Positions 4,944 to 57,983 of a DNA stretch of 64,000 nucleotides are shown here, piece by piece. The translations under genes were made by a program, and so were the position numbers. The notes beneath the pieces were generated by a model. The model ran no database searches. It saw only the letters and a program-made list of their open reading frames with translations, and was not told where the DNA came from. Within the stretch, counting starts at the first letter, position 1; every line of letters begins with the position of its first letter. Origin of the DNA: Chthonomonadales bacterium (GTDB taxonomy: Bacteria; Armatimonadota; Chthonomonadetes; Chthonomonadales; CAJBBX01); assembly GCA_027459625.1 (NCBI GenBank), contig DAIDHP010000001.1, positions 62,001-126,000 of the forward strand. The letters run 5' to 3'.

Positions 4944-6464
4944 CTAAGTGAATTCTATTTTAAAAACGTTAGCATACGGACTCGGGGTCTTTTCCGGCGG
5001 AGTAATTACGATACCGTTTGGTGTGACGGACCATTTGATTTTACTCCTGGTCCCCAATAAAGAGATCGTTCGAATAGCCTTTTCATGGGATTTAACCGAT
5101 GGTTTCAAGGAATCAATTGTGATCTCCCCCTTCGGCGCCCCCATTACAATCACGTAAAGCGCATCGTTCTTGATGGTGAACCGCTTATCCTCCGGGGTGA
5201 GATCCTTGATTTTGTCCTCCACGAACGCCCCTCCCGCAGTAGGGGTGGGGCCCTCTCCGAAAACCCTCCAGGGTCTTGTATTGTAGATCGCCTCGCCGTT
5301 CACTTTCAACCAATTTCCGATCGTGAGAAGGCGATCTCGCACTTCCTGGGGAATCGTTCCATCCGCCTGCGGGGTGATGTCCAAAAGAAAACATCCGTTT
5401 TTGCTCGTGATATCCACCAGTTCATCTAAAAGACGCTTGACGGATTTATATTGTAAATTTTGAACATAGCACCAAGAGTTCCAGGCTATCGCGTCATCAG
5501 TCATCCACGGACGCTCGGAGATATCCGCCATCCTCCCCCTCTCGAGGTCCTCCACAGCAACGCCGTCCGGAAGGTCTGGTTTTTTATATGTGAGGACGAC
5601 AGGTTTTCGCCATGCGCTCTGTTGGTTATAATAATGGGATATCAAATCCATCCTATAACTCGCCGGGATGATCGCCATGCGGCTGTCGAAATAGATGAGG
5701 TCCGGTCGATAGAGTTCGATCACCTCGCGCACCTTCCTCTCCCACTCCTTGCAAAAAGGCTCGTCCGGCGGCGGCATGGGATGGGAATAGTCGAATGCGG
5801 ATGAAGGCAGCGGCGGACCGTAGAGTCCGGAGTATGCCGGATTGGAGCAATCGCAGGTGGAATCTTCCGTCGGATACCAGCCCCATCGCCACTGATGATG
5901 GAAGGTGGTTACAAACTTCAAGCCCTTGCGTCGCACCGCTTGAGACATCTCCCCCACAAGGTCTCTCTCCGGTCCCATCTTCGCAGCGTTCCACTCATTC
6001 ACTTTGCTGTCCCACATCGAGAACCCGTCTGCGTGCTCCGCCACCGGACCGGCGAATTTGGCGCCCGCTTGCTTGAACAGTTCCGCCCACTCATCGGGAT
6101 CGAATCGCTCGGCCTTGAATTGCGGCGCGAAGTCCTTGTAGCCAAAAGTCAAAAGGGGACCGTAATGCTTCAGATGGTAAGCGTTCGCCGCGGAACCCTT
6201 GATGTACATATTGCGGGAGTACCACTCGTTGTCGTAGGCGGGGACGGAGTAGAGACCCCAGTGGTAATAGATTCCGAATTTGGCGTCGCGGAACCAATCC
6301 GGAACCTGGTATTGCCGGAGGGATTGCCAGTTCGGCTGAAATTCCGCATCCCTTGATATAGCCTCGCCTTGTGCGTCCGTTTCACCGGGAAAGCGCAGCA
6401 TGCTCATCACTTCAACCCCGGAAATCGCACACTGGCGGATGAAGTTGCGCCTGGTTATTGACAT
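4944..6464 (-). CDS. Alpha-L-fucosidase (GH29) with Tat signal
   Basis: 506 aa. The N-terminus SITRRNFIRQCAISGVEVMS carries a twin-arginine motif followed by a weakly hydrophobic stretch, so export by the Tat route is likely, unlike the Sec-dependent paralogue downstream. GH29 landmarks include DWFRDAKFGIYYHWGLYSVP, the AGPVAEHADGFSMWDSKVN block, and PDLIYFDSRM, where the Asp is the expected nucleophile. SKNGCFLLDITPQADGTIP is the conserved block near the end of the catalytic domain. There is no obvious C-terminal binding module. It leads a two-gene fucosidase transcript. Substrate linkage preference cannot be predicted. Confidence 0.9.
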   Translation of the reverse strand: MSITRRNFIRQCAISGVEVMSMLRFPGETDAQGEAISRDAEFQPNWQSLRQYQVPDWFRDAKFGIYYHWGLYSVPAYDNEWYSRNMYIKGSAANAYHLKHYGPLLTFGYKDFAPQFKAERFDPDEWAELFKQAGAKFAGPVAEHADGFSMWDSKVNEWNAAKMGPERDLVGEMSQAVRRKGLKFVTTFHHQWRWGWYPTEDSTCDCSNPAYSGLYGPPLPSSAFDYSHPMPPPDEPFCKEWERKVREVIELYRPDLIYFDSRMAIIPASYRMDLISHYYNQQSAWRKPVVLTYKKPDLPDGVAVEDLERGRMADISERPWMTDDAIAWNSWCYVQNLQYKSVKRLLDELVDITSKNGCFLLDITPQADGTIPQEVRDRLLTIGNWLKVNGEAIYNTRPWRVFGEGPTPTAGGAFVEDKIKDLTPEDKRFTIKNDALYVIVMGAPKGEITIDSLKPSVKSHEKAIRTISLLGTRSKIKWSVTPNGIVITPPEKTPSPYANVFKIEFT

Positions 6465-37895: not shown

Positions 37896-39578
37896 TCACT
37901 CCTCCTTGTTATCCCCAGTGGCCTTCGCGTAAGTAAGGAAAGCTCCGGTGAGGTTTCTCGCCCTGAATCCGTTTTGAAGGAGTATGCGGCAAGCGTAATA
38001 GGATCTTTGCCCCACCAAACAATAAGCCACTATCTCCTTGTCCTTTGGCAACTCATTCAAGTGATGTCTCAACTCCGGCAATGGAATGTTGATGGATCCG
38101 GGGATATAACCTTTCGAGCGCTCCTCAGGCTGTCTCACGTCGAGAAGCAGAATCTTATCGGGGTCGTAGTCCTCCACCTCATGCCATTGAACGAGACTGA
38201 TATCCCCCGCCATTACATTCTCCGCTATCATACCCGCCAAATTCACGGGGTCCTTTGCGGATCCGAACGGCGGCGCGTAAGAAAGCTCCACCTGAGCAAG
38301 CTCATCCATCGTCATCCCCGTCTTGAGTGCTGTTGCGAGAACGTCAATCCTCTTATCCACGCCGTTCTCGCCAACCACCTGAGCACCCAAAAGCTTGCCT
38401 GTCTCAGGCGAGAAAAGCACTTTCAAAGTCAGTCGCGTGGCTCCAGGATAGTAGCCCGCATGGTTCAATGGATGAAGGAAAACGGTCTGATAGGATATGC
38501 CCGCTTTCTCAAGCATCTTCTCATTGGCTCCAGTACCCCCGGCGGTGATATTGAAAAGACGCAAGATACCGGTGCCCCACGTCCCCTCGTATTTCACATC
38601 CTTGCCGAGGATGATATCCGCCGCCATTCTGCCTTGACGGTTCGCCGGTCCCGCCAATGGGATGTGGCACCACTCGCCAGTCACCGCATGCCGGACCTCT
38701 ATGACGTCACCAACCGCCCAAATGTTCGGATCGCTGGTTTGCAATTTCTCGTTGACGCGAATTCCGCCCAACTTGCCGATCTCCAGACCAGCCTTTTTCG
38801 CCAGATCCGCCTCGGGACGCACTCCCAATCCCAAAATGACCACATCAGCGGGTAGTCGTTTGCGGCTTTTCAAAATCACTACGGATGCCAACGCATGTTC
38901 GCCATCATCCGGCTCCGCGAAGGACGCCACGCCGTCGCCCAGATAGAGATCCACTCCGTTGAGAGCAAGCTCCTCATGCAACCAAACCGCCATGTCCATG
39001 TCGATGCTGTTCATCACCTGAGGGAGGACTTCCGCAATGGAAACGTGGATTCCTCTCCGATGCAACTGCTCCGCCATTTCCAAGCCTATGTACCCTCCGC
39101 CCACAATGACGGCATTTTTAACCGGTTTTGAGGAGAGCCAGGCGTCCAGCGCAAGCGTATCGGGCACATTCCTGATAACGAAATGACCAGGACGATCTAT
39201 GCCGGGAATTGGAGGTTTTAACGGGGAGGCTCCCGGGGATAGAATTAAAGCGTCATAACTCGTTTTGTATGTGGCGCCGGTATCGAGGTTACGGGCTTCC
39301 ACCTCCTTGGCGTCGCGATCTATCTCAATCACCTCCGTGCGCACGCGAACATCCAAATTAAACCTGTTTTTCAATCCCTGCGGAGTTTGAACGTATAAGT
39401 CTCTCTCCTCGGCGATCTCCCGCCCGATATAATAAGGCAGACCGCAATTTGCGAACGACACATGCGGTCCTCGTTCGAAGAGAATGATTTCCGAATCTTC
39501 GGATAATCTGCGCGCACGCGCAGCGGCGCTCGCTCCACCTGCTACGCCACCGACAATTACAATTTTTTTGCTTCCCAT
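37896..39578 (-). CDS. CoA-disulfide/persulfide reductase fused to a rhodanese domain
   Basis: 560 aa. The FAD domain begins KKIVIVGGVAGGASAAARA. SFANCGLPYYIG carries the single active-site Cys45 of the CoADR family. NAVIVGGGYIGLEMAEQL is the NAD(P)H-binding motif, and IWAVGDVIEVRHAVTGEW the second FAD contact. From about residue 455 a rhodanese domain follows, with ILLLDVRQPEERSKGYIPGS and catalytic Cys520 in VAYCLVGQRSYY. Known fusions (e.g. Shewanella Npsr) reduce polysulfide, persulfide or CoA-persulfide with NAD(P)H. It is the last gene of the sulfur-relay group on the minus strand, with the DUF6951-type gene 130 nt upstream. Confidence 0.9.
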   Translation of the reverse strand: MGSKKIVIVGGVAGGASAAARARRLSEDSEIILFERGPHVSFANCGLPYYIGREIAEERDLYVQTPQGLKNRFNLDVRVRTEVIEIDRDAKEVEARNLDTGATYKTSYDALILSPGASPLKPPIPGIDRPGHFVIRNVPDTLALDAWLSSKPVKNAVIVGGGYIGLEMAEQLHRRGIHVSIAEVLPQVMNSIDMDMAVWLHEELALNGVDLYLGDGVASFAEPDDGEHALASVVILKSRKRLPADVVILGLGVRPEADLAKKAGLEIGKLGGIRVNEKLQTSDPNIWAVGDVIEVRHAVTGEWCHIPLAGPANRQGRMAADIILGKDVKYEGTWGTGILRLFNITAGGTGANEKMLEKAGISYQTVFLHPLNHAGYYPGATRLTLKVLFSPETGKLLGAQVVGENGVDKRIDVLATALKTGMTMDELAQVELSYAPPFGSAKDPVNLAGMIAENVMAGDISLVQWHEVEDYDPDKILLLDVRQPEERSKGYIPGSINIPLPELRHHLNELPKDKEIVAYCLVGQRSYYACRILLQNGFRARNLTGAFLTYAKATGDNKEE

Positions 39579-39708
39579 CTTTTATGCTTTCTAACGATAG
39601 GATTGTCCGTTCAGTAAGATGCACGAAGGTATCCACAGGGACTCGTATAAATCCCCGAGAAACGAACGGACAAATTCACGTTTTGTGTTTATTATATTCC
39701 GAGATTGG

Positions 39709-40020
39709 CTACTCGGACACTTTTATCGAGGCGTCCTTTGGCAGCGCCAACCCCGCAGCCACTTCCACCGCCTTCACAATACCGGCGGGAACGGGACAAG
39801 CGGTGTGCTTGCAACATCGCGACGCAACTTTGAGGATCTCCGGTCCGCCGCCTCGAAAACTTATCTCCCGGAACGGATCCACCCGGTTCAGTTCCTGAGC
39901 CATCTTTTGAATGGATTCGCACTCGCTTTGAATAGATACAACGCACTCATCGCCATCCATGTGCGTCTCCACGACCGTATTGAAGCCGCATACTCCGGAC
40001 ATTATTTCCGCTTTCGCCAT
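39709..40020 (-). CDS. Small Cys-rich protein resembling DUF6951
   Basis: 103 aa, no signal peptide. It begins MAKAEIMSGVCGFNTVVETH, has ECESIQKMAQELNRVDPF and ends with a KVASRCCKHTACPVPAGI cluster. This looks like the DUF6951 family, which is often found beside redox and sulfur genes; I am moderately sure of the family and its function is unknown. Five to six cysteines could bind a metal or carry a persulfide. It lies between the CoA-disulfide reductase-rhodanese gene and the FadL-like porin, on the same strand. Confidence 0.6.
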   Translation of the reverse strand: MAKAEIMSGVCGFNTVVETHMDGDECVVSIQSECESIQKMAQELNRVDPFREISFRGGGPEILKVASRCCKHTACPVPAGIVKAVEVAAGLALPKDASIKVSE

Positions 40021-40173
40021 TTAGATACCTCTTAAGAGAATTGCAACATTCCTCATGTTACGCGATGGATGCACTTTTGAAAGCGCAGCCAACACCTCGC
40101 AGACGAATGTTGCAATTATATGTTTTTCATTTATAAGCCGGGACGCAGGGGCGTCTCGCGGACGACACTTGGT

Positions 40174-41493
40174 TTACCAGTGAATTCCGTAGTTGGCTTC
40201 CACTTCCCACTGATACATTCGAAGCGTGATGCTCTGTTGCCCCGGCACTTCCATCGGATTCGGTCCGGTTACGGACGATGGAGGGGAGTACATCAGCGAC
40301 ATGGAGAAGTCATCCTTGGAATTAAGCTTCTTGGTGAAACCCGTAGTGATATGCCATTCCTGCACACCTGGGGCAAGAATGTTGAACAACACCTCGCTGC
40401 TGGGAATGGGCTGTCTGCAATAATCCAATCCCGCGCGCACCGTCCAACTGGAACTAACTTGTCTTTGGACACCCAACTTGTAAACCACAACGTCTCTCCA
40501 ACCGAAACCGGCTCCGTTGGATCCTCCCAAAAGGTCATCCGGATCATTGCTTTGGAAACCGTTCATTAGATTGGAAAACGGGTTGCCGATGGAGTGAACT
40601 TGGCTGTACCAGATTTTCTGAACATCGAATTCAATCAGATTCCGATGGCTCTCATTCCAAGCCAGACCCACCGTGGCGTTTTGAGGAATGTCAAAGCCGC
40701 CATGGTCCGCGAAGAGATCCGAGTACTTGGGGAATTTTTGCATGACGATCTTTGTTTGATAGGCAAGTCCAAGTCTCAAGTTCGGTGCGACTTCCCCCAT
40801 GACTCCAAGCGCTCCACCATATCCGAAGGAGTGATCGTACCCTCGGTTCGTAAGATTATTCGTGGAATCGTCGCTATCAAAACTACCAAACGCGGAAAGT
40901 CCTTTGGCGGAGAACTGTTGGTAGGCTAAGATCAAAGAAACTCCCCATGACGCCTTGTTATTAAACTTTCGCGAGTAAGAGGGGATCATGTAAAGCTGGG
41001 AAAGATCCACTCCCGCCGATCCTCCGTAAAAGGTGCCTGTGGGCATCCCTTTGCCGTTGCTAATGGCGGGATAGTTGGTGTTCATTCCACCATTGCCGTA
41101 CATTGTGAAGCCAAAGGAACTATTCGGTGTGAGCATATGGTTGGTTGCAAGGTGAGGATTTCCGAAAAAGTCCTGATTGCTTCTCACAGTACCCGGCGTC
41201 AATCCGAAAGTTCCCTGTTGGCCAGAAGGGTTACCCTGCACACTGTAAGACCGTTCGGGAATGAAGAGCGCCGCCCCTATATCGAAACGGTTCCCGATAA
41301 AAACCAATCCCGCAGGATTGATAGCCGCCGCCATGGCATCCTGGGGATAGGCGACGCCCACCCCTCCCATGCCTTTTGAAATGGTACCATATCCGTTTTC
41401 AAAATAGCCATCCGTGGCGTAAACTGCCCGTGGCGCAACAATAAGCGCCGCCAAGCCCAGCGCAACGCATGCGCAGGCGAAATTGCGTTTCAT
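40174..41493 (-). CDS. FadL/OmpP1/TodX-type outer-membrane transporter
   Basis: 439 aa with a signal peptide (ACACVALGLAALIVAPRAVYA, cleaved after YA). The mature start TDGYFENGYGTISKGMGGVG, then AYPQDAMAAAINPAGLVFIG, is the conserved N-terminal hatch of FadL proteins. Beta-strand-rich sequence follows and the last residues (QWEVEANYGIHW) end in an aromatic, as expected for an outer-membrane beta-barrel. These porins take up hydrophobic molecules such as fatty acids, aromatics or toluene. Its position inside the sulfur-relay cluster suggests a hydrophobic substrate for that system. It has a 240-nt gap before dsrE2. Confidence 0.9.
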   Translation of the reverse strand: MKRNFACACVALGLAALIVAPRAVYATDGYFENGYGTISKGMGGVGVAYPQDAMAAAINPAGLVFIGNRFDIGAALFIPERSYSVQGNPSGQQGTFGLTPGTVRSNQDFFGNPHLATNHMLTPNSSFGFTMYGNGGMNTNYPAISNGKGMPTGTFYGGSAGVDLSQLYMIPSYSRKFNNKASWGVSLILAYQQFSAKGLSAFGSFDSDDSTNNLTNRGYDHSFGYGGALGVMGEVAPNLRLGLAYQTKIVMQKFPKYSDLFADHGGFDIPQNATVGLAWNESHRNLIEFDVQKIWYSQVHSIGNPFSNLMNGFQSNDPDDLLGGSNGAGFGWRDVVVYKLGVQRQVSSSWTVRAGLDYCRQPIPSSEVLFNILAPGVQEWHITTGFTKKLNSKDDFSMSLMYSPPSSVTGPNPMEVPGQQSITLRMYQWEVEANYGIHW

Positions 41494-41734
41494 GCCAGCA
41501 TGTCCTCCGTTTTATGTTTTGGGTGCGCCTTTTTTCGACGCTTTCCATAATGGACTGACACAGTGCGAATTTCTCCCCGTATCAGTCAGCGCATGTTCCT
41601 AACAACCACATTTGTCACAGAAACCCATGTATTCGTGTTGAAAAATGACATCAAATGACGATGATGCATACCATACATATTCGAGTAAACTAGCAGCTCC
41701 CTGTAATTATGCATTTTCTCGTTTTGTGCTTCCA

Positions 41735-42310
41735 CTAAATGAAGAGAGAAGCCTTGCTGGAGCCAGCCTCCTGCAGGAATTTCGCCACCCCTGCGGGTTT
41801 CATGTCCGGATAATCTATCAATTCCTCCTGAGAGAATCCCATTAAATCCATGCTCATCTGGCAAACATAGATTTTAACACCGGAATCCCCCGCCTGCTTG
41901 ATCAGCTTGTCAAGCGACATGACGTTTTTCTTTTGCATGAGTCCTTTGAGCATATTGGTGCCCATCCCGCCCATATTCATTTTGGAGAGAACCACCTTGT
42001 CGGCACCCTTGGGAAGCATAGACCCGAACATTTTGCTCATGAAATCCTTCCCCTTAGGGGTTTTATTCGGGTCTCTTAGAGCCGCCGTGGCCCAGAAGGT
42101 GAAGAACATCACCACCTCCTCGTACATCGCCATGGCGCCTGTTGCAATGATGAAAGCTGCGAGAAGCTTGTCAAGGTCGCCGCTGAAAACAACCATGGAG
42201 AGTTTATCCTCGGGAAGGGAGGAGGATTTGATCTCCTCCAACTCCTCACGAAGACTCTCAACCTGTTGTTGCAGTTGCTCTATGGTTAATGCGGATACAT
42301 CCATTGCCAT
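41735..42310 (-). CDS. DsrE2-type sulfur relay protein (DsrE/DsrF/DrsH-like family)
   Basis: 191 aa. Residues ~8-30 form a short coiled coil, followed by the DsrE fold KLSMVVFSGDLDKLLAAFII. Cys150 in VKIYVCQMSMDLMG is the likely sulfur-carrying cysteine. Hydrophobic segments (AGAMAMYEEVVMFFTFWATA) suggest membrane contact, which is typical for DsrE2 proteins. AAGGAGAACGAAG precedes ATG 42310. DsrE2 commonly works with TusA and rhodanese in sulfur trafficking, and here tusA and a rhodanese fusion lie in the same cluster. It starts 11 nt after the qmoC-like gene's stop, so it is co-transcribed with it. Confidence 0.87.
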   Translation of the reverse strand: MAMDVSALTIEQLQQQVESLREELEEIKSSSLPEDKLSMVVFSGDLDKLLAAFIIATGAMAMYEEVVMFFTFWATAALRDPNKTPKGKDFMSKMFGSMLPKGADKVVLSKMNMGGMGTNMLKGLMQKKNVMSLDKLIKQAGDSGVKIYVCQMSMDLMGFSQEELIDYPDMKPAGVAKFLQEAGSSKASLFI

Positions 42311-42321
42311 CTTCGTTCTCC

Positions 42322-43437
42322 TTACGCTTGGTTTAGAAAATAGACGAATAGCGCAATCGGGCGATAAATAACATGTGCGAACTTTGTGAAAGCTAGCAAC
42401 AATATCAACTCCATCGCCATAGCGGCATGCAAGAGCATGATACCGTCATTCACCGGAGATATTATCTGAAATGTGGTGGCTATCTCCAGCCAATAACCGG
42501 TCAATGCCAACACGAACAAAAAGATCAACAGCCACCAATCAGGCAAACTGGTATAAGCCGCGTTCTTCTCCTCTTTTGAGAATCTGCGAAGCATTGCCGC
42601 ACTTACGCCCCAGAGCATGACTAACCCAGATACGGTACCGATAATTCTCGCAGGCCAGAAGATGCTAAGATGCAGTGGTAGAAGCTCCAGGAAGACGAAA
42701 TCCAGAGTGGTTGCCACTAACAACCCGATGAAACCATACATGATCGCTAAATGGATCCAAGCATGCGACCGGTACCATACGACCGGTTCGGATGCCGGAG
42801 ACTCTTCGCGATGCCTTTTCATCGTAATAATTTCGGTTATCGTTTGCTTAAGTGCGGATACCCATTTGCCTGGCGCGGGCTTGCTTGCGCCTCCCCAGGA
42901 CGATAACCTATTGAATATCTTCATGATCCCACCTACAATGGTCAGAACCGCCAATATCGATACAGCTATGCCAAGGTAGTGAATCATCTGATATGAGACC
43001 TCTCCGAATATCCAATGCGACGGATTATCTCCAACCTTCACAGTCAGCATGAATGCGCCAAGCACGATGCCCACTAACAATGTGACTATGACCGCAAAAA
43101 CACCGCTTCGGTACATCAAACGCCCAATCCCCGTCGGCTCGCTTTGCGCGATGGCGTAACGTCGTAACGCCGCCATATACTCCCCAGGTTCGGCTTGTCG
43201 CGGGCATGTATCAGAGCATTCACCACAATAGTAACACAACCAAGGTTCCGGTCCGGATATGACTCTGTTCTTATCCCCAATCTGACCCAGTCGAATCAGT
43301 TTGCGAGGAAAAGAGCCCACGGTGTCGGAAAGTGGGCAAACAGCGGTGCAGTTGCCGCAATTGAAGCAAGCGTTTATATCAAACGCGCCATATTCCTTGA
43401 TCTCCTTCAGGAGATCGGGATTAACGGTGATAGCCAT
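42322..43437 (-). CDS. QmoC-like subunit: HdrC iron-sulfur domain fused to a b-heme membrane domain
   Basis: 371 aa. Two [4Fe-4S] motifs: CFNCGNCTAVCPLS (C24, 27, 30, 34) and CYYCGECSDTCPRQ (C68, 71, 74, 78), the HdrC pattern. From about residue 105 there are five or six membrane helices related to the nitrate reductase gamma/HdrE family. Candidate haem b ligands are the His residues in AWIHLAIMYG and in LLHAAMAMELILLLAFTKFAHV. QmoC links a soluble flavin/iron-sulfur complex to membrane quinones. Here the HdrA-type partners are encoded upstream on the same strand. Confidence 0.9.
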   Translation of the reverse strand: MAITVNPDLLKEIKEYGAFDINACFNCGNCTAVCPLSDTVGSFPRKLIRLGQIGDKNRVISGPEPWLCYYCGECSDTCPRQAEPGEYMAALRRYAIAQSEPTGIGRLMYRSGVFAVIVTLLVGIVLGAFMLTVKVGDNPSHWIFGEVSYQMIHYLGIAVSILAVLTIVGGIMKIFNRLSSWGGASKPAPGKWVSALKQTITEIITMKRHREESPASEPVVWYRSHAWIHLAIMYGFIGLLVATTLDFVFLELLPLHLSIFWPARIIGTVSGLVMLWGVSAAMLRRFSKEEKNAAYTSLPDWWLLIFLFVLALTGYWLEIATTFQIISPVNDGIMLLHAAMAMELILLLAFTKFAHVIYRPIALFVYFLNQA

Positions 43438-43444
43438 GGCGTAC

Positions 43445-43729
43445 TCACTTCTTTCTATAGGCGATGTAATCGCCCTTTTTCGTTTCGTCGGATACTTTGT
43501 TATATTTTCGCATGGCGGTGATCCACCAGAAGACCTCCTGTGTGTTCATGCCGGTGGCTTCGGCGATTTCGGGAACCGTCTTAGCCTCCTTGTCAATCAC
43601 AGCAAGGATCGCTTTTTGCGCTTTGATCTGTTCTTTGCTGCGCTCCTGCTTCTCCTTTGAGCCTTCCCCCCGCCGCGCTCTTAGTTCCTTGATTTGCTCG
43701 GTGTAACTCAGTTTTTTCTCTTCTTCCAT
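43445..43729 (-). CDS. Small winged-helix-like protein in the Hdr/Qmo cluster
   Basis: 94 aa. The N-terminal ~45 residues are a charged helix (Lys/Glu/Arg-rich). The rest looks like a winged helix: ILAVIDKEAKTVPEIAEATG, then VFWWITAMRKYNKVSDETKK, ending in a short beta hairpin. No cysteine. It starts 21 nt after the HdrA-like gene's stop and ends 7 nt before qmoC. It might be a regulator of the cluster, or a structural subunit whose fold resembles a DNA-binding domain; small genes of this type occur in other Hdr/Qmo clusters as far as I recall. Confidence 0.65.
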   Translation of the reverse strand: MEEEKKLSYTEQIKELRARRGEGSKEKQERSKEQIKAQKAILAVIDKEAKTVPEIAEATGMNTQEVFWWITAMRKYNKVSDETKKGDYIAYRKK

Positions 43730-43750
43730 TAACGCTCTCCTCGTTATCCC

Positions 43751-45559
43751 TTAGGCGGGTACCATCGCCGGTTCCAACTCCTCCATGCTGATGGCGTCAA
43801 TCATTCCATCAAACTGGTCGAGAGTCCAACCTGCGATATTGATTGCTCGAGGCGGACACACGGCGACGCAGGCGCCGCAACCGACACAAAGGGCGGGGTT
43901 CACGTGTGCGTAATTCTCCGCCATGAACAGCGCTCCCTTGTATTCGCATTCCGCAAGGCATAGTTTGCATCCGTCGCACTTCGCTTCGTCCACTCGCGCC
44001 ACATAAGGATCCATCTCGATGGTTTTCTTGGATAGCAGGATGGAGACCTTGGCGGCGGACGCACCTGCGGCGGCGCAGCTTTCGGTGATATCCATCGGTC
44101 CTTGGCATGTCCCGGCGATCATGATGCCGTTGTTCGCCAACTCAACCGGTCGAAGCTTCGGATGCACCTCTTGGAGGAAACGATCCGTGCCGGTCGGCAG
44201 CTTCAACATGCCCACCAAATTGCTGATCTCGCGAGGCACCATGCCGGTTGCGAGCACAATCATATCCGCCGGAATGGAGACCTCCTCGTTCCAAGTGAGG
44301 ACGTCCTTCATTGTCAGAGTGGCGCCGGAGCCGTTCGGGGATGGAGCGTATTCCGGGATGCTGTCGTCCGTGTAGCGAAAGAACGTCACACCGCGCTTGG
44401 AAGCCTTTTCATAGTAATCTTCGTGTCCGTGCCCGTAGGTTCGGATATCCTTGTATAGGTCGAAGATATTCAGGTTGGGGAACTTATCCAAGGTTTTGTT
44501 TATGGTGTGAAGTGTTGCCGTGCAGCACACACGCGAACAATATTCATTCACACGCCCGTCGGCTTGCGGTTGATGAACTCCCTCCACCTGCCTGCTGCCA
44601 ACGCAGTGGATGAAGGCGAGGTTTTTTATCTCCTTGCCCTTGTATGTGAACTTGTCGGACTGGGGCATGTCGGCGATCAGTTTGTTAAACTCCGGCAATG
44701 TGACGACTACCGGAGATTTTCCGTAACCGAATTCGCCTTCGTATGGCTGATAATGGTCGAAACCCGTTGCCAAAACGATAGCTCCCGCACGAACTTTGTC
44801 AATCTTGGAATCCTTGTCTCTTATTTGAACATCGAAATTTCCCACGAAGCCTTCGATCATCTCAATTTCGCAATTGAGGCGCACATCTAATTTCTCCGAT
44901 CGGACGGCGTTTTCCAGTTGGGACACGATATCCGTAGCTTTCTCCTCGGTTGGATAGACCTTATCCAATTCCAATGCTCTACCCCCGAGGCGATCGCCTT
45001 TTTCTATCAGCGTCACTCCAAGACCACGCTTAAACAACGCCAGCGCGGCTCTCATTCCTGCAACTCCGCCGCCGATCACCACCACATGGCCTTCGGCGTT
45101 GACGACGATCGGCTCCAGAGGATCCTGACGTGCAATCTTTTCCACGCCGGCCGCCGTAAGTCGTATCGCCTTGGCTGTTGCGGCCTCGTTCTCCCCCTTG
45201 TGAACCCAGCTATCCTGTTCGCGGATATTCACATGCTCGTAAAGATAGGGGTTCAAGCCCGCACGAGTCAACGCCTTGCGGAATGTGGTCTCATGAAGGG
45301 TGGGGGAACATGCGGAAACCACGATTCGGTTGATATTGTTTTCGATGATATCGTCGATGATGAGTTTCTGTCCCGGATCGGAGCACATGAAAACAAAATC
45401 CTTGGCGATTTTTACATTCGGTTTTTTTTTCAGGGCTTCCACAACCGCCTTGGTATCCACCACGTCGGAAATATTGCCCCCGCAATGGCAAACATAAACC
45501 CCCACTCGGATCTCTTCGGACTCATTCTCTTGTGATTGGGTGTTCTTCTCTTCTTCCAT
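43751..45559 (-). CDS. HdrA-type flavoprotein (QmoB-like, lacking the MvhD part)
   Basis: 602 aa. An N-terminal HdrA domain (RVGVYVCHCGGNISDVVD, then VVSACSPTLHETTFRKAL) precedes the FAD motif HVVVIGGGVAGMRAALALF (~158-176) and the HdrA cysteine block YCSRVCCTATLH. Two C-terminal [4Fe-4S] ferredoxin motifs are present: CDGCKLCLAEC (from C528) and CVGCGACVAVC (from C558). Classic QmoB is about 750 aa because it ends in an MvhD domain; here that domain is the separate gene at 46867-47283. It starts 6 nt after the QmoA-like gene's stop. Confidence 0.9.
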   Translation of the reverse strand: MEEEKNTQSQENESEEIRVGVYVCHCGGNISDVVDTKAVVEALKKKPNVKIAKDFVFMCSDPGQKLIIDDIIENNINRIVVSACSPTLHETTFRKALTRAGLNPYLYEHVNIREQDSWVHKGENEAATAKAIRLTAAGVEKIARQDPLEPIVVNAEGHVVVIGGGVAGMRAALALFKRGLGVTLIEKGDRLGGRALELDKVYPTEEKATDIVSQLENAVRSEKLDVRLNCEIEMIEGFVGNFDVQIRDKDSKIDKVRAGAIVLATGFDHYQPYEGEFGYGKSPVVVTLPEFNKLIADMPQSDKFTYKGKEIKNLAFIHCVGSRQVEGVHQPQADGRVNEYCSRVCCTATLHTINKTLDKFPNLNIFDLYKDIRTYGHGHEDYYEKASKRGVTFFRYTDDSIPEYAPSPNGSGATLTMKDVLTWNEEVSIPADMIVLATGMVPREISNLVGMLKLPTGTDRFLQEVHPKLRPVELANNGIMIAGTCQGPMDITESCAAAGASAAKVSILLSKKTIEMDPYVARVDEAKCDGCKLCLAECEYKGALFMAENYAHVNPALCVGCGACVAVCPPRAINIAGWTLDQFDGMIDAISMEELEPAMVPA

Positions 45560-45565
45560 ATCCTC

Positions 45566-46870
45566 TTACCGTCCTTCCTGGCGTCGGAGATAGTTCGCCG
45601 CCTCCGTCGCTGCGGCGCCGGCCTCCACGATAGTGTCCACGATATCCTTCGGACCGGTCATGGTTCCCGCTGCAAAAACCCCTTCCATGCTGGTTAATGA
45701 TGGAGTGACCTTTTCGTTGACGCTGCGAACAAACCTATCCTCACCGATTTCCAATGGGATGATACCGTCTCTGTCCGGAATCCACGCGGGGACCATGCCC
45801 AAGGAAAGCATAACCAGATCGTGCGTAACATCCTCCGGTTGTGAGCAATCCTCCTGCCGTTCAACACGAAGAATCGGATTATGGTTCTCATCCTCCGAGA
45901 TTCTCCCGACCTTGGCTTTGACGAACTGGATCCCCATCGCCTTGGCGTTCTGATAGAATTGCTCGTAGCCTTTGCCGAAAGCTCGGATATCCATGTAATA
46001 GATAGTGATATCCGCGATTGGCAACGATCCGGAGAGCAACATCGCCTGTTTAATGGCGTACATGCAACAGACCCTGGAGCAGTAAGGAACTCCGAGGCTC
46101 TTGTCGCGCGATCCGGCGCATTGCACGAAGGCGATGGAATCGGGAATTTTGCCGTCGGAGGGACGCATCACGCCCCCGTAGGGTCCATGAGGAGCAAGCA
46201 AACGTTCCATCTGAAGCGGAGATATGACGTTCGGATATTTATCCCCGCCGTATTGCTTTTTCGCGCTGATCTCCGTAAGATTGTAACCGGTCGCCATGAT
46301 GACGGCTCCCGCTTCCGCCTCGATCTCCTGCGGCTCCTGCATAAAGTTGATGCACTGGGTCGGGCACGCCTTCGCGCAGGCACCGCATAGCAGGCATTCG
46401 TCCATGTCGAGCACCGGATATTGAGGAATGGCGTTTGTGAAGGCGATGGATATCGCCTTCTTGGCGCCGAGACTGTGGTCGTATTCGTCCGGCAGATAGG
46501 TGGTGCAAGCCTCCTCGCATCGTTTGCATCCGATGCAGGCGGTCTCATCCAGGTATCGGGGTTTTTTGGTGATCCTGGCGTGGAATTTGCCATTCACTCT
46601 TTCAATTTTGTTCACCTCAGTGTAAGTGAGCAGATCGATACTGGGATGATGCGCCACGGACGCCATGCGGGGAGTGGTAATGCAGCTTGCGCAATCCAAA
46701 GTGGGGAACACCTTGCTTAGGTTGATCATTCGCCCGCCGATGCTGGGCTGAGATTCCACTAGCAGTATCTGTTTGCCTTGGTCGGCGAGATCTAGGGACG
46801 CCTGCAAACCGGCTATCCCTGCGCCGACAACAAGCACGTCGGCCTTTTTTTGTATGGTTGCCGCGCTCAT
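45566..46870 (-). CDS. HdrA-type flavoprotein (QmoA-like)
   Basis: 434 aa. It lacks the HdrA N-terminal domain, as QmoA does. Seen: the FAD-binding motif DVLVVGAGIAGLQASLDLAD, then the Cys pair LDCASCITTPRM near residue 60. Two [4Fe-4S] motifs are C112-x2-C115-x2-C118-x3-C122 and C159-x2-C162-x2-C165-x3-C169. YCSRVCCMYAIKQA is the HdrA-type cysteine block, and EGVFAAGTMTGPKDIVDTI the FAD tail motif. Its start overlaps the MvhD-like gene's stop by 4 nt. It probably passes electrons between its flavin and QmoC. Confidence 0.9.
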   Translation of the reverse strand: MSAATIQKKADVLVVGAGIAGLQASLDLADQGKQILLVESQPSIGGRMINLSKVFPTLDCASCITTPRMASVAHHPSIDLLTYTEVNKIERVNGKFHARITKKPRYLDETACIGCKRCEEACTTYLPDEYDHSLGAKKAISIAFTNAIPQYPVLDMDECLLCGACAKACPTQCINFMQEPQEIEAEAGAVIMATGYNLTEISAKKQYGGDKYPNVISPLQMERLLAPHGPYGGVMRPSDGKIPDSIAFVQCAGSRDKSLGVPYCSRVCCMYAIKQAMLLSGSLPIADITIYYMDIRAFGKGYEQFYQNAKAMGIQFVKAKVGRISEDENHNPILRVERQEDCSQPEDVTHDLVMLSLGMVPAWIPDRDGIIPLEIGEDRFVRSVNEKVTPSLTSMEGVFAAGTMTGPKDIVDTIVEAGAAATEAANYLRRQEGR

Positions 46871-47283
46871 GCCGCCACCCCTTCCTTTTCCGAGCGAGCC
46901 TGCAGAATATTCTTCTGCATCTCGTTAATCTCCTTGAGAAACGCAGCCTTGCACACTGTGCAGATGGTGGTCAGCTTCAAACGCGAAGTATCAATTCCAT
47001 TTTCCTTCATCTGAACATAGACACGCGCCACTCGTTCGGAAAGTCGACGGTAAGCCCCTTCATACGGGCAATCCGAGCCGCTGCTCATGATGATAATGCC
47101 GTCTATCCCCTTCTCATAACAACGCATGTAAAACGATTCAGGAAAAACAACCGGATCGGGAACACGGATGATGTAGGTGCCAGGGGAGTAATGCAGATGC
47201 GCCTGACCAACCGTGTTAGCGCCCGGGTAAGAGCTGATCATTGTGGTGATGAGTAGTATTTTCATGTTGTTATGGTCGCCCAT
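46867..47283 (-). CDS. MvhD-like (hydrogenase iron-sulfur subunit family) protein lacking most cluster cysteines
   Basis: 138 aa. The fold pattern matches MvhD: a beta start (KILLITTMISSYPGANTVGQ), then YIIRVPDPVVFPESFYMRCY, then IDGIIIMSSGSDCPYEGAYR and a C-terminal helix. Known MvhD proteins have a CxxC near the first strand and a second cysteine-bearing loop. Here these positions read TTMISSY and VPDPVVF, with no cysteine. Only one Cys of the SDCPYEG turn remains, with a new CxxC in TTICTVCKAA. In QmoB this domain is fused to the C-terminus of HdrA; here it is free-standing. The ATG follows GGAAGGCTCGGT and overlaps the next gene by 4 nt. Confidence 0.8.
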   Translation of the reverse strand: MGDHNNMKILLITTMISSYPGANTVGQAHLHYSPGTYIIRVPDPVVFPESFYMRCYEKGIDGIIIMSSGSDCPYEGAYRRLSERVARVYVQMKENGIDTSRLKLTTICTVCKAAFLKEINEMQKNILQARSEKEGVAA

Positions 47284-47304
47284 ACCGAGCCTTCCATTTC
47301 TATG

Positions 47305-47553
47305 CTACTTGCGGCGAATGACGTAAAGACTATCGTAACCGTCTTTCTCGAGAAAACCAATGAACTCCTGGCCTGTCTTTTTGCACCAAGCGGAGATGTC
47401 CTCTCGACTGCCCTTGTCGCCTGACTGGATTTCCAATGTTTGTCCGACTGTAACTCCTCCGATGGCTTTCTTCGCTTCGAGCAGAGGGCCCGGGCACGCC
47501 ATGGATCGAGCATCCACAACTTTATTTGGGGTGATTCCTTCTAGGTTTGCCAT
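47305..47553 (-). CDS. tusA: TusA-family sulfur carrier protein
   Basis: 82 aa from ATG 47553, preceded by GAGAGGAAAG; the longer frame back to 47592 lies inside the transcript leader. KVVDARSMACPGPLLEAKKA contains the family's CPxP persulfide cysteine (C20). TusA accepts sulfur from a rhodanese or DsrE-type donor and passes it on as a persulfide. A second Cys in AWCKKTGQ lies near residue 57. The protein is small and cytoplasmic. It heads the Hdr/Qmo cluster and is transcribed from the promoter at 47609-47637. Confidence 0.93.
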   Translation of the reverse strand: MANLEGITPNKVVDARSMACPGPLLEAKKAIGGVTVGQTLEIQSGDKGSREDISAWCKKTGQEFIGFLEKDGYDSLYVIRRK

Positions 47554-47608
47554 GATATCTTTCCTCTCTGTGATAGTGTTGTTGAGTTTCAAAGTACTTA
47601 CGTTGTCT

Positions 47609-47637
47609 ATTATATATCAATATTCATATATAGTCAA
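47609..47637 (-). promoter_or_regulatory. Strong promoter of the tusA-Hdr/Qmo cluster
   Basis: On the minus strand TTGACT (47637-47632), a 17-nt spacer and TATAAT (47614-47609): an almost consensus sigma70 promoter. The predicted start near 47602 leaves a leader of about 48 nt before the tusA ATG. I saw no other equally strong promoter between 47.6 and 37.9 kb, so a long transcript is possible. Confidence 0.85.
47611..47632 (-). promoter_or_regulatory. AT-rich near-palindrome filling the tusA promoter spacer (candidate operator)
   Basis: The 22 nt from 47611 to 47632 are symmetric except for one mismatched base pair on each side of the centre: TATATAT, an unpaired base, AATATT, an unpaired base, ATATATA. 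It occupies the spacer and touches both the -35 and -10 hexamers. A repressor bound here would block polymerase, as ArsR-type sulfur-sensing repressors do. The AT-richness means chance symmetry is possible. Confidence 0.5.
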
Positions 47638-47763: not shown

Positions 47764-47794
47764 ATTAATATGGCTAAATATTAGCCATATTAAT
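47764..47794. repeat. Perfect 14-bp inverted repeat between atpC and tusA
   Basis: ATTAATATGGCTAA (47764-47777), ATA, then TTAGCCATATTAAT (47781-47794), with no mismatch. It is about 70 nt past the atpC stop and 130 nt upstream of the tusA promoter. On the minus strand it is followed by an A-rich stretch, not T, so it is not a standard intrinsic terminator. Confidence 0.7.
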
Positions 47795-55627: not shown

Positions 55628-55943
55628 ACTCCTCCATTCATATTCTAGCGTGCGAATGAGTCGGATTGAAAATGGGTTCCCCCAATTTTTATCGATCCGG
55701 ACCGCGACGCTCCTAAAGGAAGATTGTTACACTTTGAGGGGTGGGAATTGATTTACAGCGTGCGTAATGCTATATTTTACATGTCTATCGGTGAAAATCA
55801 AGTTGATCCGAACAAATCGATGTGAATGTTTCACCCTTGGAGAACTTTCCGTCTTATTTTTTTGCATTAGCCCGCATAAAGTGTGTCGCATTACAATCTC
55901 ACGATTCAGTCGGTTTCATTTCAATCCGACGGGAGGAATATTG
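55628..55943 (+). other. Leader region upstream of the GH27 gene
   Basis: No gene of its own. A long in-frame extension upstream of ATG 55944 (open from ~55767) lacks a ribosome site, and the protein fits the family from 55944. The region holds a promoter at 55748-55776 and so a transcript leader of about 160 nt, long enough for a regulatory element. I recognised no riboswitch in it. Confidence 0.4.
55748..55776 (+). promoter_or_regulatory. Probable promoter of the GH27 gene
   Basis: TTGATT (55748-55753), a 17-nt spacer and TATATT (55771-55776). The -35 matches consensus at 4 of 6 and the -10 at 5 of 6. The predicted start is near 55783. Confidence 0.55.
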
Positions 55944-57983
55944 ATGAACAAACGCTTTTGGTGTCTCCTATGCGGCCTTCCATTCGCACTTATTGTCGCA
56001 TTGGCGATGCTGACTGTCATGCGTCCGGCGCAAGCGCAGGACGCATCGGAGCTCACCGCTCAAACACCCCCGCCCAACGCCATATGGCTAGGAAGTCTGG
56101 ATCTATCCAAGATGACTCAGGGCTGGGGGAAATCCACTGCGGACAAATCCGTGGGTGGAAACCCGATCACTCTCAACGGCGTTGTTTACCCGCATGGAGT
56201 GGGAACGCACGCCGTGAGTGATTTCGATGTGAATCTCAAAGGCGTCGCTGTTAAATTCGTCTCGATGGTCGGCGTGGATGACGAAAAGAAGGGCATGGGA
56301 AGCGTGGATTTCCGCGTGTGGGTTGACGATAAGAAAGTCGCCGACAGCGGAGTGATGCATGGAGGAGATCCAGCGAAGCTGATCTCCGTGAATCTCACCG
56401 GCGCCAAAATGATGCGTCTGGAGGTAACCGACGCAAATGATGGCATCGATTCCGACCACGCTGACTGGGCGGGAGCTATGATCTTCCTTGAACCGGGAGC
56501 GACAGTGAAACCCGTCTCGGTGGATTGGGTGGACGATTCCCCGATGCCTGTAATCGCCGACTGCACCAATCCCCCTGCTAAGCCGGAGATCCATGGTCCC
56601 CGCATCACCGGGGCGACCCCCAGCAGACCCTTCCTGTTCATGGTTCCCGTTACCGGCAAGGAACCCATCACTTTTCATGCATCAGGTCTCCCCTCCGGAT
56701 TGAAAATCAACCCGCATACGGGAATCATCACCGGCGCACTGAAAGCGAGCGGCGTGCATGTGGTCACCATCATTGTGCATGGCCCCGCAGGCACGGCGAA
56801 GAGAGATCTGACAATTGTGGGAGGCATACACAAACTTGCTCTCACGCCGCCTCTTGGGTGGAACTCCTGGAACGTTTGGGCGGGCGCGGTGGACGATGCG
56901 AATGTTCGCTCCTCCGCATTGGCGATGGTCAAAAGCGGACTCGCGGCGCACGGCTTCCAATTCATCAACATAGATGACACATGGGAGGATGGGCGTGACG
57001 CGCAGGGCTTTATTCAATCGAACAAGAAATTCCCCAGCATGACGGCTCTTGCGGATTACGTGCACAGCCTCGGCTTAAAGCTTGGAATCTACTCCTCGCC
57101 AGGTCCGAAAACTTGTGGTGGCTATGAGGGAAGTTACCAGCACGAACAACAGGATGCGGACACCTACGCGAGATGGGGCATCGATTACCTTAAGTATGAC
57201 TGGTGCTCGTATGGGGGCATCGCCAAGAACAATAGCCTTCCGGAACTGCAGAAACCCTATAAGCTCATGCGCTCCTGCCTGGACAAAGTGGACAGGGATA
57301 TCGTATTCAGCTTCTGTCAATACGGTATGGGCGATGTATGGAAATGGGGAGCGCAAGCCGGCGGCAACCTCTGGAGATGCACCGGGGATATCAACGATTC
57401 CTGGGGATCCATGGCGAGCAATGGCTTCAGCCAAAGCGACCATTACATGTACGCCGGACCGGGGCACTGGAACGACCCGGATATGCTCGTGGTGGGATAC
57501 GTCGGCTGGGGCAATCCGCATAAGACCCATTTGTCTTATAACGAACAGATCACCCACATCTCCCTCTGGAGCATGATCGCAGCTCCTTTACTGCTTGGAT
57601 GCGATATGAGCAAGCTGGACAAATTCACCTTGGACTTGCTCTGCAACGACGACGTGCTGGATGTGGATCAGGACCCCATGGGCAAGGCAGGGCATCGTTA
57701 TTGGCAGCATAACACGATCCAAATGTGGGCGAGACCTCTCTGGGACGGTACAATGGCCGTCGCGCTCTTCAATACAGGCGAGGAGCCACACAAGGGCTCG
57801 GTGCTTTGGTCCGATCTCGGCTTGAAGGGCAAACAGTTGGTGCGCAACCTGTGGCTGAAAAAGAACCTGGGCTATTTCGCCGGCGGTTTCTCCGCCGAAG
57901 TGCCTCCTCACGGAACGGTGCTCATCAAGGTGGGAAAACCGAAGAATATCAAGGCGTACATCCCGCCTAAAAACGAGGAATAG
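55944..57983 (+). CDS. Secreted alpha-galactosidase (GH27) with N-terminal NPCBM domain
   Basis: 679 aa from ATG 55944 (GGGAGGAATATTG). A Sec signal (ALIVALAMLTVMRPAQAQD) comes first, then an NPCBM domain (~45-185: NAIWLGSLDLSKMTQGWGKS, then HGVGTHAVSDFDVNL), then a short Ig-like domain. The GH27 barrel starts TPPLGWNSWNVWAGAVDDAN. Asp in YLKYDWCSYGG is the nucleophile and Asp in CTGDINDSWGS the acid/base. It should release terminal alpha-galactose. It is monocistronic, with a promoter and a strong terminator. It complements the fucosidases elsewhere in the window. Confidence 0.94.
   Translation: MNKRFWCLLCGLPFALIVALAMLTVMRPAQAQDASELTAQTPPPNAIWLGSLDLSKMTQGWGKSTADKSVGGNPITLNGVVYPHGVGTHAVSDFDVNLKGVAVKFVSMVGVDDEKKGMGSVDFRVWVDDKKVADSGVMHGGDPAKLISVNLTGAKMMRLEVTDANDGIDSDHADWAGAMIFLEPGATVKPVSVDWVDDSPMPVIADCTNPPAKPEIHGPRITGATPSRPFLFMVPVTGKEPITFHASGLPSGLKINPHTGIITGALKASGVHVVTIIVHGPAGTAKRDLTIVGGIHKLALTPPLGWNSWNVWAGAVDDANVRSSALAMVKSGLAAHGFQFINIDDTWEDGRDAQGFIQSNKKFPSMTALADYVHSLGLKLGIYSSPGPKTCGGYEGSYQHEQQDADTYARWGIDYLKYDWCSYGGIAKNNSLPELQKPYKLMRSCLDKVDRDIVFSFCQYGMGDVWKWGAQAGGNLWRCTGDINDSWGSMASNGFSQSDHYMYAGPGHWNDPDMLVVGYVGWGNPHKTHLSYNEQITHISLWSMIAAPLLLGCDMSKLDKFTLDLLCNDDVLDVDQDPMGKAGHRYWQHNTIQMWARPLWDGTMAVALFNTGEEPHKGSVLWSDLGLKGKQLVRNLWLKKNLGYFAGGFSAEVPPHGTVLIKVGKPKNIKAYIPPKNEE

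Follow-up and report, generated by a model that had tools for sequence, protein, structure and literature searches.

Gene content of the module

We analyzed a 64,000-nucleotide stretch of DNA (here, the window) from a Chthonomonadales bacterium of the phylum Armatimonadota (GenBank assembly GCA_027459625.1), which spans bases 62001 to 126000 of contig DAIDHP010000001.1 (C1) in a host genome of 4.55 Mb, 114 contigs, and 96.55% completeness. On its minus strand, from 47553 to 41735, lie seven tightly spaced genes: tusA, mvhD, a qmoA-like gene, hdrA, a gene for a winged-helix protein, qmoC, and dsrE2. They combine sulfur-carrier proteins with two HdrA-type flavoproteins and a QmoC-like membrane subunit, and here, we refer to them as the module. 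Genes for a FadL protein, a DUF6951 protein, and a CoA-disulfide-reductase (CoADR)/rhodanese fusion follow dsrE2 on the same strand after wider gaps (Table 1). An earlier note on this DNA had placed all ten genes on one strand in this order, which our analysis confirms, although the ribosome-binding site puts the tusA start at 47553 and not at 47592 as in its open reading frame list.

Pfam and NCBIfam scans back the gene names of the cluster, with the exception of the winged-helix protein, which has no match in either collection. Like the QmoC and CoADR matches in Table 1, the remaining NCBIfam matches fall under their cut-offs: TusA scores 29.9 bits against the TusA equivalog (cut-off, 78) and also matches YedF, DsrE2 scores 64.9 bits against the DsrE2 equivalog (cut-off, 210), and both flavoproteins find HdrA2 as their best match, at 477 and 510 bits (cut-off, 1100). 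By these scores, QmoC, TusA, DsrE2, and the HdrA-type proteins appear to be members of their broad families that lie outside the named subtypes.

Table 1. Features of the module and its surroundings in the window
Feature	Position	Strand	Evidence or location
Perfect 25-bp inverted repeat AATATGGCTAATATTTAGCCATATT, possible operator of a putative regulator	47767..47791	.	Sequence
Sigma-70-like promoter TTGACT-17-TATAAT, overlapped by the near-palindrome TATATATGAATATTGATATATA	47609..47637	-	Upstream of tusA
tusA-like sulfur carrier, 82 amino acids, CPGP motif	47305..47553	-	PF01206, 66.1 bits
mvhD-like free subunit, changed cysteines (C72, C108xxC111)	46867..47283	-	PF02662 (FlpD/MvhD), 54.7 bits
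qmoA-like HdrA core, inserted ferredoxin, without N- and C-terminal HdrA domains	45566..46870	-	Family scans, tree
hdrA, 602 amino acids: N-terminal domain, flavin adenine dinucleotide (FAD) core, C-terminal ferredoxin	43751..45559	-	Family scans, tree
Winged-helix protein, 94 amino acids, cysteine-free; nearest solved folds ArsR/SmtB-type	43445..43729	-	Predicted structure
qmoC-like membrane subunit, several hydrophobic segments; 8 cluster Cys and 3 His conserved	42322..43437	-	NF038018, 206.9 bits (cut-off, 300)
dsrE2-like sulfurtransferase, Cys150 conserved, two overlapping hydrophobic segments	41735..42310	-	PF13686 (DrsE_2), 167.4 bits
FadL/Toluene_X outer-membrane protein, accessory	40174..41493	-	Toluene_X, 65 bits
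DUF6951 protein, outside the conserved module	39709..40020	-	DUF6951, 115 bits
CoA-disulfide-reductase/rhodanese fusion, accessory	37896..39578	-	CoA-disulfide reductase, 482 bits (cut-off, 579), and rhodanese

The module is conserved in order and widespread across phyla

Starting from a QmoC scan of genome contigs, we kept the best 80 of 357 relatives as loci, each with flanks of up to 10,000 bases, many of them cut by contig ends. A locus was counted as a module locus if a tusA or winged-helix match lies beside qmoC, and 42 of the 80 qualify; this definition builds in QmoC and tusA or the winged-helix gene, and the other genes and their order are independent of it. The gene order that had been read in the window recurs in other genomes: all 31 module loci that are uncut at the 5' side carry tusA-mvhD-qmoA-hdrA-qmoC on one strand, and the remaining 11 begin at a contig end. 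The winged-helix gene sits between hdrA and qmoC in 28 of these 31 loci by the first search and, with L051 and L061 added by a profile check that did not take in L054, in 30 of 31. DsrE2 matches of more than 100 bits are present in 23 of the 42 module loci and not in all. Where no DsrE2 lies beside the module in L020, L028, L034, and L063, a DsrE-family gene is found 3' of qmoC (L028, L034, and L063) or 5' of tusA (L020).

The 42 loci are distributed over at least 13 named phyla (Armatimonadota, Fibrobacterota, Bdellovibrionota, Verrucomicrobiota, Lentisphaerota, Krumholzibacteriota, Acidobacteriota, Elusimicrobiota, Bacteroidota, Planctomycetota, Actinomycetota, Thermodesulfobacteriota, and, within Methanobacteriota, Archaeoglobales), plus "Deltaproteobacteria" records placed under Myxococcota, and 11 of the 13 are present among the 31 complete loci. 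Nearly all of the records are metagenome-assembled genomes (MAGs), so single taxon assignments may be wrong. Two Labilibaculum records that carry the module, L051 and L061, are not marked as MAGs, and a test in culture therefore looks possible. Closer to the window, module MvhD is present in 9 of 61 genomes (the host and 60 listed relatives); two loci from the window's family, L093 and L095, share the DNA sequence of L007 ("uncultured Chthonomonas sp.") and L005 ("Armatimonadetes bacterium") throughout their 3.4 kb.

The three downstream genes fared differently. The earlier note had named the rhodanese fusion with the module and had listed FadL, DUF6951, and CoADR-rhodanese after its genes; among the module loci, none of the three is a conserved neighbor. 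FadL occurs near the module also in L006 (1-324) and, as a weak match of 46 bits, in L018 (4429-5616), and CoADR in L011, L012, and L026, with a weak match in L023. One possibility is that the FadL proteins beside the module import hydrophobic sulfur.

We also surveyed the surroundings of 25 of the 27 module loci without apr or dsr evidence (L014 and L054 excluded), 149 frames in all. A simple codon score was used to call these frames, some of which are likely to be spurious; 124 were scanned, and the 25 omitted include all nine of L061. Among the top 25 of 189 families in the 124 frames, DsrE is the most frequent, with 4 frames, followed at 3 frames by families that include DrsE_2, ArsR-type HTH_5, URO-D, sigma-70, and TPR, and no common catalytic partner stands out. 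A further 92 frames near 15 other loci were listed, of which 20 were scanned.

Relationship to sulfate reduction

Scans of the host genome give best scores of 30.9 bits for AprA (cut-off, 641.75) and 27.2 bits for DsrA (cut-off, 392.85), and place CCG (HdrB-like) proteins on contigs C2 and C63 only, with none among the ten cluster genes. By these scans for AprA, DsrA, and CCG proteins, none of aprAB, dsrAB, or hdrB lies beside the cluster. The earlier note had seen none of these genes here. For apr and dsr, this holds in the host genome at curated cut-offs but not for the family as a whole; for hdrB, it holds beside the cluster but not genome-wide, given the HdrB-like CCG protein in a hydrogenase-type locus on C63.

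Across 43 genomes (the host and those of the 42 module loci), AprA is found above cut-off in 11 and as a clear fragment in 4 more, for a total of 15, and DsrA above cut-off in 13 and as a clear fragment in 1, for a total of 14, all of them within the 15 AprA genomes. Neither protein is found in 28 of the 43, although genome incompleteness may hide some. Module-type MvhD scores at least 158 bits in 39 of the 43 genomes, and all other MvhD-type matches score 106.1 bits or less. In every genome with both AprA evidence and module MvhD (13 of 13), the two reside on different contigs, and 9 of these 13 have a fused QmoB-type frame no more than about 7 kb away from AprA. This separation, together with the fused frames near AprA, indicates that the module is an addition to classic Qmo in sulfate reducers and not a substitute for it.

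Two Archaeoglobales loci have dsr genes close by. In both L050 (5308-12472) and L035 (2271-8517), a cobB-type gene comes after the module. Beyond it, L050 has DsrO, DsrM, DsrK, and DsrJ above their cut-offs and, after DsrO, a DsrP-like protein below its own; L035, scanned there except for its middle frames, has DsrK above cut-off. This adjacency argues against a strict reading of the module as a system without dsr genes, and for a dissimilatory role in sulfur metabolism.

Phylogeny and correlated divergence of the subunits

To place the two flavoproteins, we built an HdrA-type tree of 142 rows by a quick method, with support from the Shimodaira-Hasegawa-like approximate likelihood ratio test (SH-aLRT) only and no bootstrap. 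Module QmoA (35 of 35 rows) and module HdrA (38 of 38) each form a clade of their own with SH-aLRT support of 100. Classic QmoA forms one clade (19 of 19; support, 99), and 19 of 20 rows labeled as classic QmoB fall together, the twentieth being a Porphyromonadaceae row assigned by a score rule. The expectation that the subunits would separate from those of sulfate-reducer Qmo is thus borne out for QmoA and HdrA, which lie outside the classic clades, but not for QmoC. In an unrooted tree of L003 to L082, module and classic QmoC rows are mixed; the distribution of the module label takes 6 changes, and well-supported branches force at least 4 of these. The pattern would suit an exchange of the membrane subunit among complexes, and under the midpoint root, if correct, the classic QmoC rows would fall inside module QmoC.

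One further locus, L074 (8973-16791) of Candidatus Methanoperedens, has a QmoC beside long HdrA-type proteins and an MvhD, with no tusA match. Its HdrA rows adjoin the module QmoA clade with modest support.

We next compared pairwise distances among loci with all five main genes (28 rows, comprising 27 loci and the window; L003, L007, L054, and L061 were omitted as near-duplicates). TusA, MvhD, QmoA, and HdrA diverge in concert (rho, 0.73 to 0.88), and none of 300 shuffles reached such values. Correlations are lower for the winged-helix protein (rho, 0.49 to 0.68; 27 rows), for QmoC (rho, 0.33 to 0.57, where 1 of 300 shuffles reached the value of the HdrA-QmoC pair), and for DsrE2 (rho, 0.33 to 0.54; 17 or 16 rows). 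Common ancestry of the hosts contributes to all of these values.

Cofactor residues and an altered MvhD

The two flavoproteins differ in their parts. QmoA consists of the HdrA flavin core with an inserted ferredoxin (residues 111-174) and goes without the N- and C-terminal HdrA domains, and HdrA has the N-terminal domain, a core that lacks the ferredoxin insertion of methanogen HdrA, and the C-terminal ferredoxin, without the MvhD fusion of QmoB. Because their domain contents are complementary, the two appear to divide the parts of methanogen HdrA between them.

Residues expected to carry sulfur or cofactors are well kept, over numbers of rows that vary by gene. The active, sulfur-carrying cysteine of the TusA CPxP motif is present in 32 of 32 module proteins, and the sulfur-carrying cysteine of DsrE2 in 24 of 24. 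QmoC retains its eight cluster cysteines in 43 of 43 rows, along with His229 (43/43), His337 (42/43), and His355 (43/43). The motif cysteines of QmoA and HdrA, CxxxCC included, are present in all rows or all but one, except for HdrA C531 (31/42).

MvhD departs from this pattern. MvhD carries a [2Fe-2S] cluster in methanogen complexes, where electrons enter HdrA through it. Canonical MvhD proteins (12 rows from our loci and 3 from relatives) have cysteines at alignment positions 14, 17, 43, 68, and 73, which we take to hold this cluster, and no C-terminal CxxC; classic QmoB domains have cysteines at 14, 43, 68, and 73. A cysteine at 14 is missing from every module MvhD (the L082 row is truncated at this point), and cysteines at 73, 109, and 112 are common to all. 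The clade of the window (Armatimonadota, L008, and L010) has only these three, that is, one of the five canonical cysteines plus a CxxC. A second group (Desulfobacterales, Planctomycetota, Verrucomicrobiota, and others) additionally has 17 and 68, and a third (Archaeoglobales, Labilibaculum, Acidobacteriota, and others) additionally has 43, with L012 in that group also having 68. The residues that correspond to C72, C108, and C111 of the window protein are invariant (33/33).

The predicted structure of the window MvhD has a predicted local distance difference test score (pLDDT) of 89.9 and matches methanogen MvhD with Z scores of 18.1 to 18.6 over 127 to 129 residues (8rvu_F, 18.6; 5odc_D, 18.2), the next fold scoring 9.4. 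Judging from this model, module MvhD keeps the MvhD fold, and its secondary structure puts C72 in a loop that follows a strand and the CxxC immediately ahead of the last helix.

Promoter, possible operators, and the winged-helix protein

The promoter upstream of tusA matches consensus at 11 of 12 positions and is the best of 15 sites in 10.8 kb (shuffled sequences yield a mean of 10.3 sites). By reading, palindromes similar to TATATATGAATATTGATATATA lie over promoter-like hexamers in L005 and L007 as well. The 25-bp repeat is identical in L003, though the surrounding bases differ, and no copy turned up in the 330 bp inspected in L004, L005, L006, L007, L008, and L010. Directly 5' of tusA, L008 and L010 carry ArsR-family genes (PF01022 above cut-off).

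The model of the winged-helix protein (pLDDT, 88.2) has ArsR/SmtB-type proteins as its nearest folds, with weak E values (best, 6e-4). We considered this protein as a sulfur sensor and dropped the idea, as the window copy is cysteine-free and no cysteine is conserved in the family. A common operator for the module and the sulfide:quinone reductase (SQR) cluster described below was likewise dropped; the inverted repeat upstream of the ArsR-rhodanese gene differs by eye from the repeats near tusA.

Other redox and sulfur genes of the host

Contig C63 (4000-19246; L101, 6449-13940) encodes in a row HdrC, HdrB, a full-length HdrA, a canonical MvhD, and two [NiFe]-hydrogenase-type subunits. By reading, the row also holds a maturation protease, and the whole is an HdrABC-MvhADG-type locus. 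Contig C57 (L102, 1757-5064, minus strand) encodes a methyltransferase, an SQR whose best solved relative is 3hyv (E value, 3.4e-81), an ArsR-rhodanese fusion, and a DsrE protein. The window itself holds genes for cytochrome c oxidase subunits I, II (with a cytochrome c domain), and III and for SCO1, from which oxygen respiration by the host is likely. It also encodes an alpha-L-fucosidase (4944-6464) and an alpha-galactosidase with an NPCBM domain (55767-57983), and in this, the host resembles a polysaccharide degrader.

A candidate sulfane-sulfur:menaquinone oxidoreductase

We propose, with moderate confidence, that the module encodes a TusA-dependent sulfane-sulfur:menaquinone oxidoreductase, a function that we read from the sequences. 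A single membrane-bound complex would move electrons between menaquinone and TusA-bound sulfane sulfur. DsrE2, or a DsrE in other lineages, would load or unload sulfur on TusA, which would dock on the free MvhD; there, in the lineage of the window, the remaining cysteine and the CxxC may exchange the sulfur atom and its electrons. In either direction, the path would connect HdrA (C-terminal ferredoxin and flavin), QmoA (flavin and inserted ferredoxin), QmoC (two clusters and a heme-type membrane domain), and menaquinone. We infer complex formation, the heme, and the quinone end. For the host, we lean slightly toward the sulfur-to-quinone direction, given its cytochrome oxidase and the SQR elsewhere in the genome.

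Several lines of evidence argue for this assignment. The carrier cysteines of TusA and DsrE2 are kept throughout, as are C72, C108, and C111 of MvhD. The kept gene order, the correlated distances, the separate clades, the MvhD fold, and the eight QmoC cysteines are consistent with one complex of this kind, as are the DsrE stand-ins, the ArsR genes 5' of tusA, and the Archaeoglobales Dsr adjacency. In the host, the SQR, ArsR-rhodanese, and DsrE genes on C57 and the cytochrome c oxidase of the window fit the same picture. Sulfur transfer between TusA and DsrE in vitro is known in other systems, according to the accessible parts of PMC13293266 and PMC4175335. The earlier suggestion of a third Hdr/Qmo layout is supported by the lack of apr, dsr, and hdrB genes beside the cluster and by QmoA and HdrA clades outside classic QmoA and QmoB.

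Other observations weigh against the proposal. The loss of canonical MvhD cysteines is less complete in other module lineages, which retain one or two more, and the canonical MvhD on C63 has all five plus a CxxC at 109-112, so a CxxC does not by itself set the module apart. With three cysteines, MvhD might coordinate a metal, hold a cluster in a different way, or carry none of these. QmoC is mixed with its classic counterpart in the tree. The module is also patchy in the phylum of the window (15 of 291 genomes, a count that may be low, as only part of the first-look candidates was scored in many genomes). SQR as a co-occurring partner is unsupported: of the 61 genomes, 7 have SQR, 9 have module MvhD, and 3 have both. 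Proteins of the CoADR-rhodanese kind are described in the accessible part of PMC7887784 as NADH-dependent persulfide reductases; the neighboring fusion, if it is such an enzyme, would point in the reductive direction. Finally, the support comes from sequences and predicted structures, and a persulfide-to-quinone function is deduced from them.

We weighed four other explanations. The module could serve persulfide handling or delivery, in detoxification or in sulfur or selenium supply, and not energy-conserving respiration. TusA-type proteins have many delivery roles, and the window TusA also matches, below cut-off, YedF, which is tied to selenium; the ArsR/SmtB-type folds nearest to the winged-helix protein, the ArsR genes before tusA in L008 and L010, and the ArsR-rhodanese/SQR/DsrE cluster on C57 would also suit such a role. 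A QmoC-type membrane subunit and two flavoproteins, however, far exceed the needs of delivery, and the Archaeoglobales modules adjoin Dsr membrane-complex genes, so we consider this explanation unlikely. An sHdr-like system, which would oxidize sulfane sulfur fully to sulfite with its catalytic partner missing or distant, seems unlikely as well. The accessible part of PMC4175335 reports TusA and DsrE-type carriers flanking Hdr-like genes in Metallosphaera, and HdrA and HdrC-like parts are present in the module. Nevertheless, no HdrB lies beside it, the sole HdrB-like protein found being that of the hydrogenase-type locus on C63, and QmoC provides a direct quinone end. To our knowledge, sHdr systems have no such end.

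A flavin-based bifurcating or confurcating complex, in which HdrA would make or use reduced ferredoxin together with menaquinol or sulfane sulfur, can draw on the CxxxCC motifs kept in both HdrA-type flavoproteins and on the confurcation proposed for Qmo in the accessible part of PMC10553843. We judge it highly improbable, since the MvhD entry site is changed and no hydrogenase, formate dehydrogenase, or Flx appears in the partial view given by the top 25 of 189 families in 124 neighbor frames. That the module is simply a classic Qmo serving adenosine 5'-phosphosulfate (APS) reductase is scarcely credible: its QmoC belongs to the same family as classic QmoC and mixes with it in the tree, yet 28 of 43 module genomes lack AprA and DsrA at cut-off or as a clear fragment, the module lies apart from AprA in all genomes with both while a fused QmoB-type frame accompanies AprA in most, and QmoA and HdrA fall outside the classic clades.

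If the sulfane-sulfur:menaquinone oxidoreductase is taken one step further, we suggest only tentatively that the module represents a new class of respiratory enzyme, a TusA-persulfide:menaquinone oxidoreductase in which MvhD, formerly the site of electron entry, has become a site of sulfur processing. Through such an enzyme, many lineages in which no sulfate-reduction genes are seen would couple sulfane sulfur to their quinone pool, and sulfate-reducer QmoC may stem from an exchange with the module or from recruitment out of it. Sulfur-based electron transfer would then reach organisms that are missed by dsrAB/aprA surveys, as in the 28 module genomes noted above. A free MvhD that lacks the first canonical cysteine and bears a C-terminal CxxC would serve as a simple marker.

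Comparison with known systems

We found no report of the TusA link or of the changed MvhD in a partial literature search, with most subscription journals outside its scope. The gene order of the module does not appear in the accessible parts of PMC12142623, PMC4911364, PMC10553843, PMC3949148, PMC7887784, PMC6338057, PMC6397845, PMC9751629, and PMC10839748.

One of the closest described systems is type II Qmo. As presented in the accessible part of PMC10504309, type II Qmo occurs with or without Dsr/Apr, has QmoAB nearer to HdrA than type I, and is of unclear role, with named proteins from Vulcanisaeta moutnovskia and Ammonifex degensii; that part names no link to tusA or dsrE2 and no change in MvhD. 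The module, which we compared with type II Qmo by description, may be part of it and, if the proposed function is right, would provide a testable partner for that complex. Type I QmoABC likewise combines a pair of HdrA-type flavoproteins with an MvhD-type domain and a QmoC membrane subunit and keeps the order A, B, C. In the module, by contrast, MvhD is free and not fused to QmoB, aprAB is absent, tusA leads the operon, QmoA and HdrA form separate clades, and no MvhD has the Cys 14 of QmoB.

The sulfur-carrier side of the module also has its counterparts. sHdr systems share with it TusA, DsrE-type carriers, and HdrA and HdrC parts, but the module has a QmoC membrane anchor in place of an adjacent HdrB. 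The YTD cluster (yedE, tusA, and dsrEFH type II) likewise pairs TusA with DsrE-family proteins; as treated in the accessible parts of PMC13293266 and PMC12998232, it is distinct from the module, which has no YedE-type family among the ten cluster genes and ties TusA to HdrA and QmoC. Methanogen HdrABC-MvhADG, finally, shares the MvhD fold and the HdrA domains, whereas the module has no HdrB or hydrogenase, distributes the HdrA domains over two proteins, and has mostly lost the canonical MvhD cysteines.

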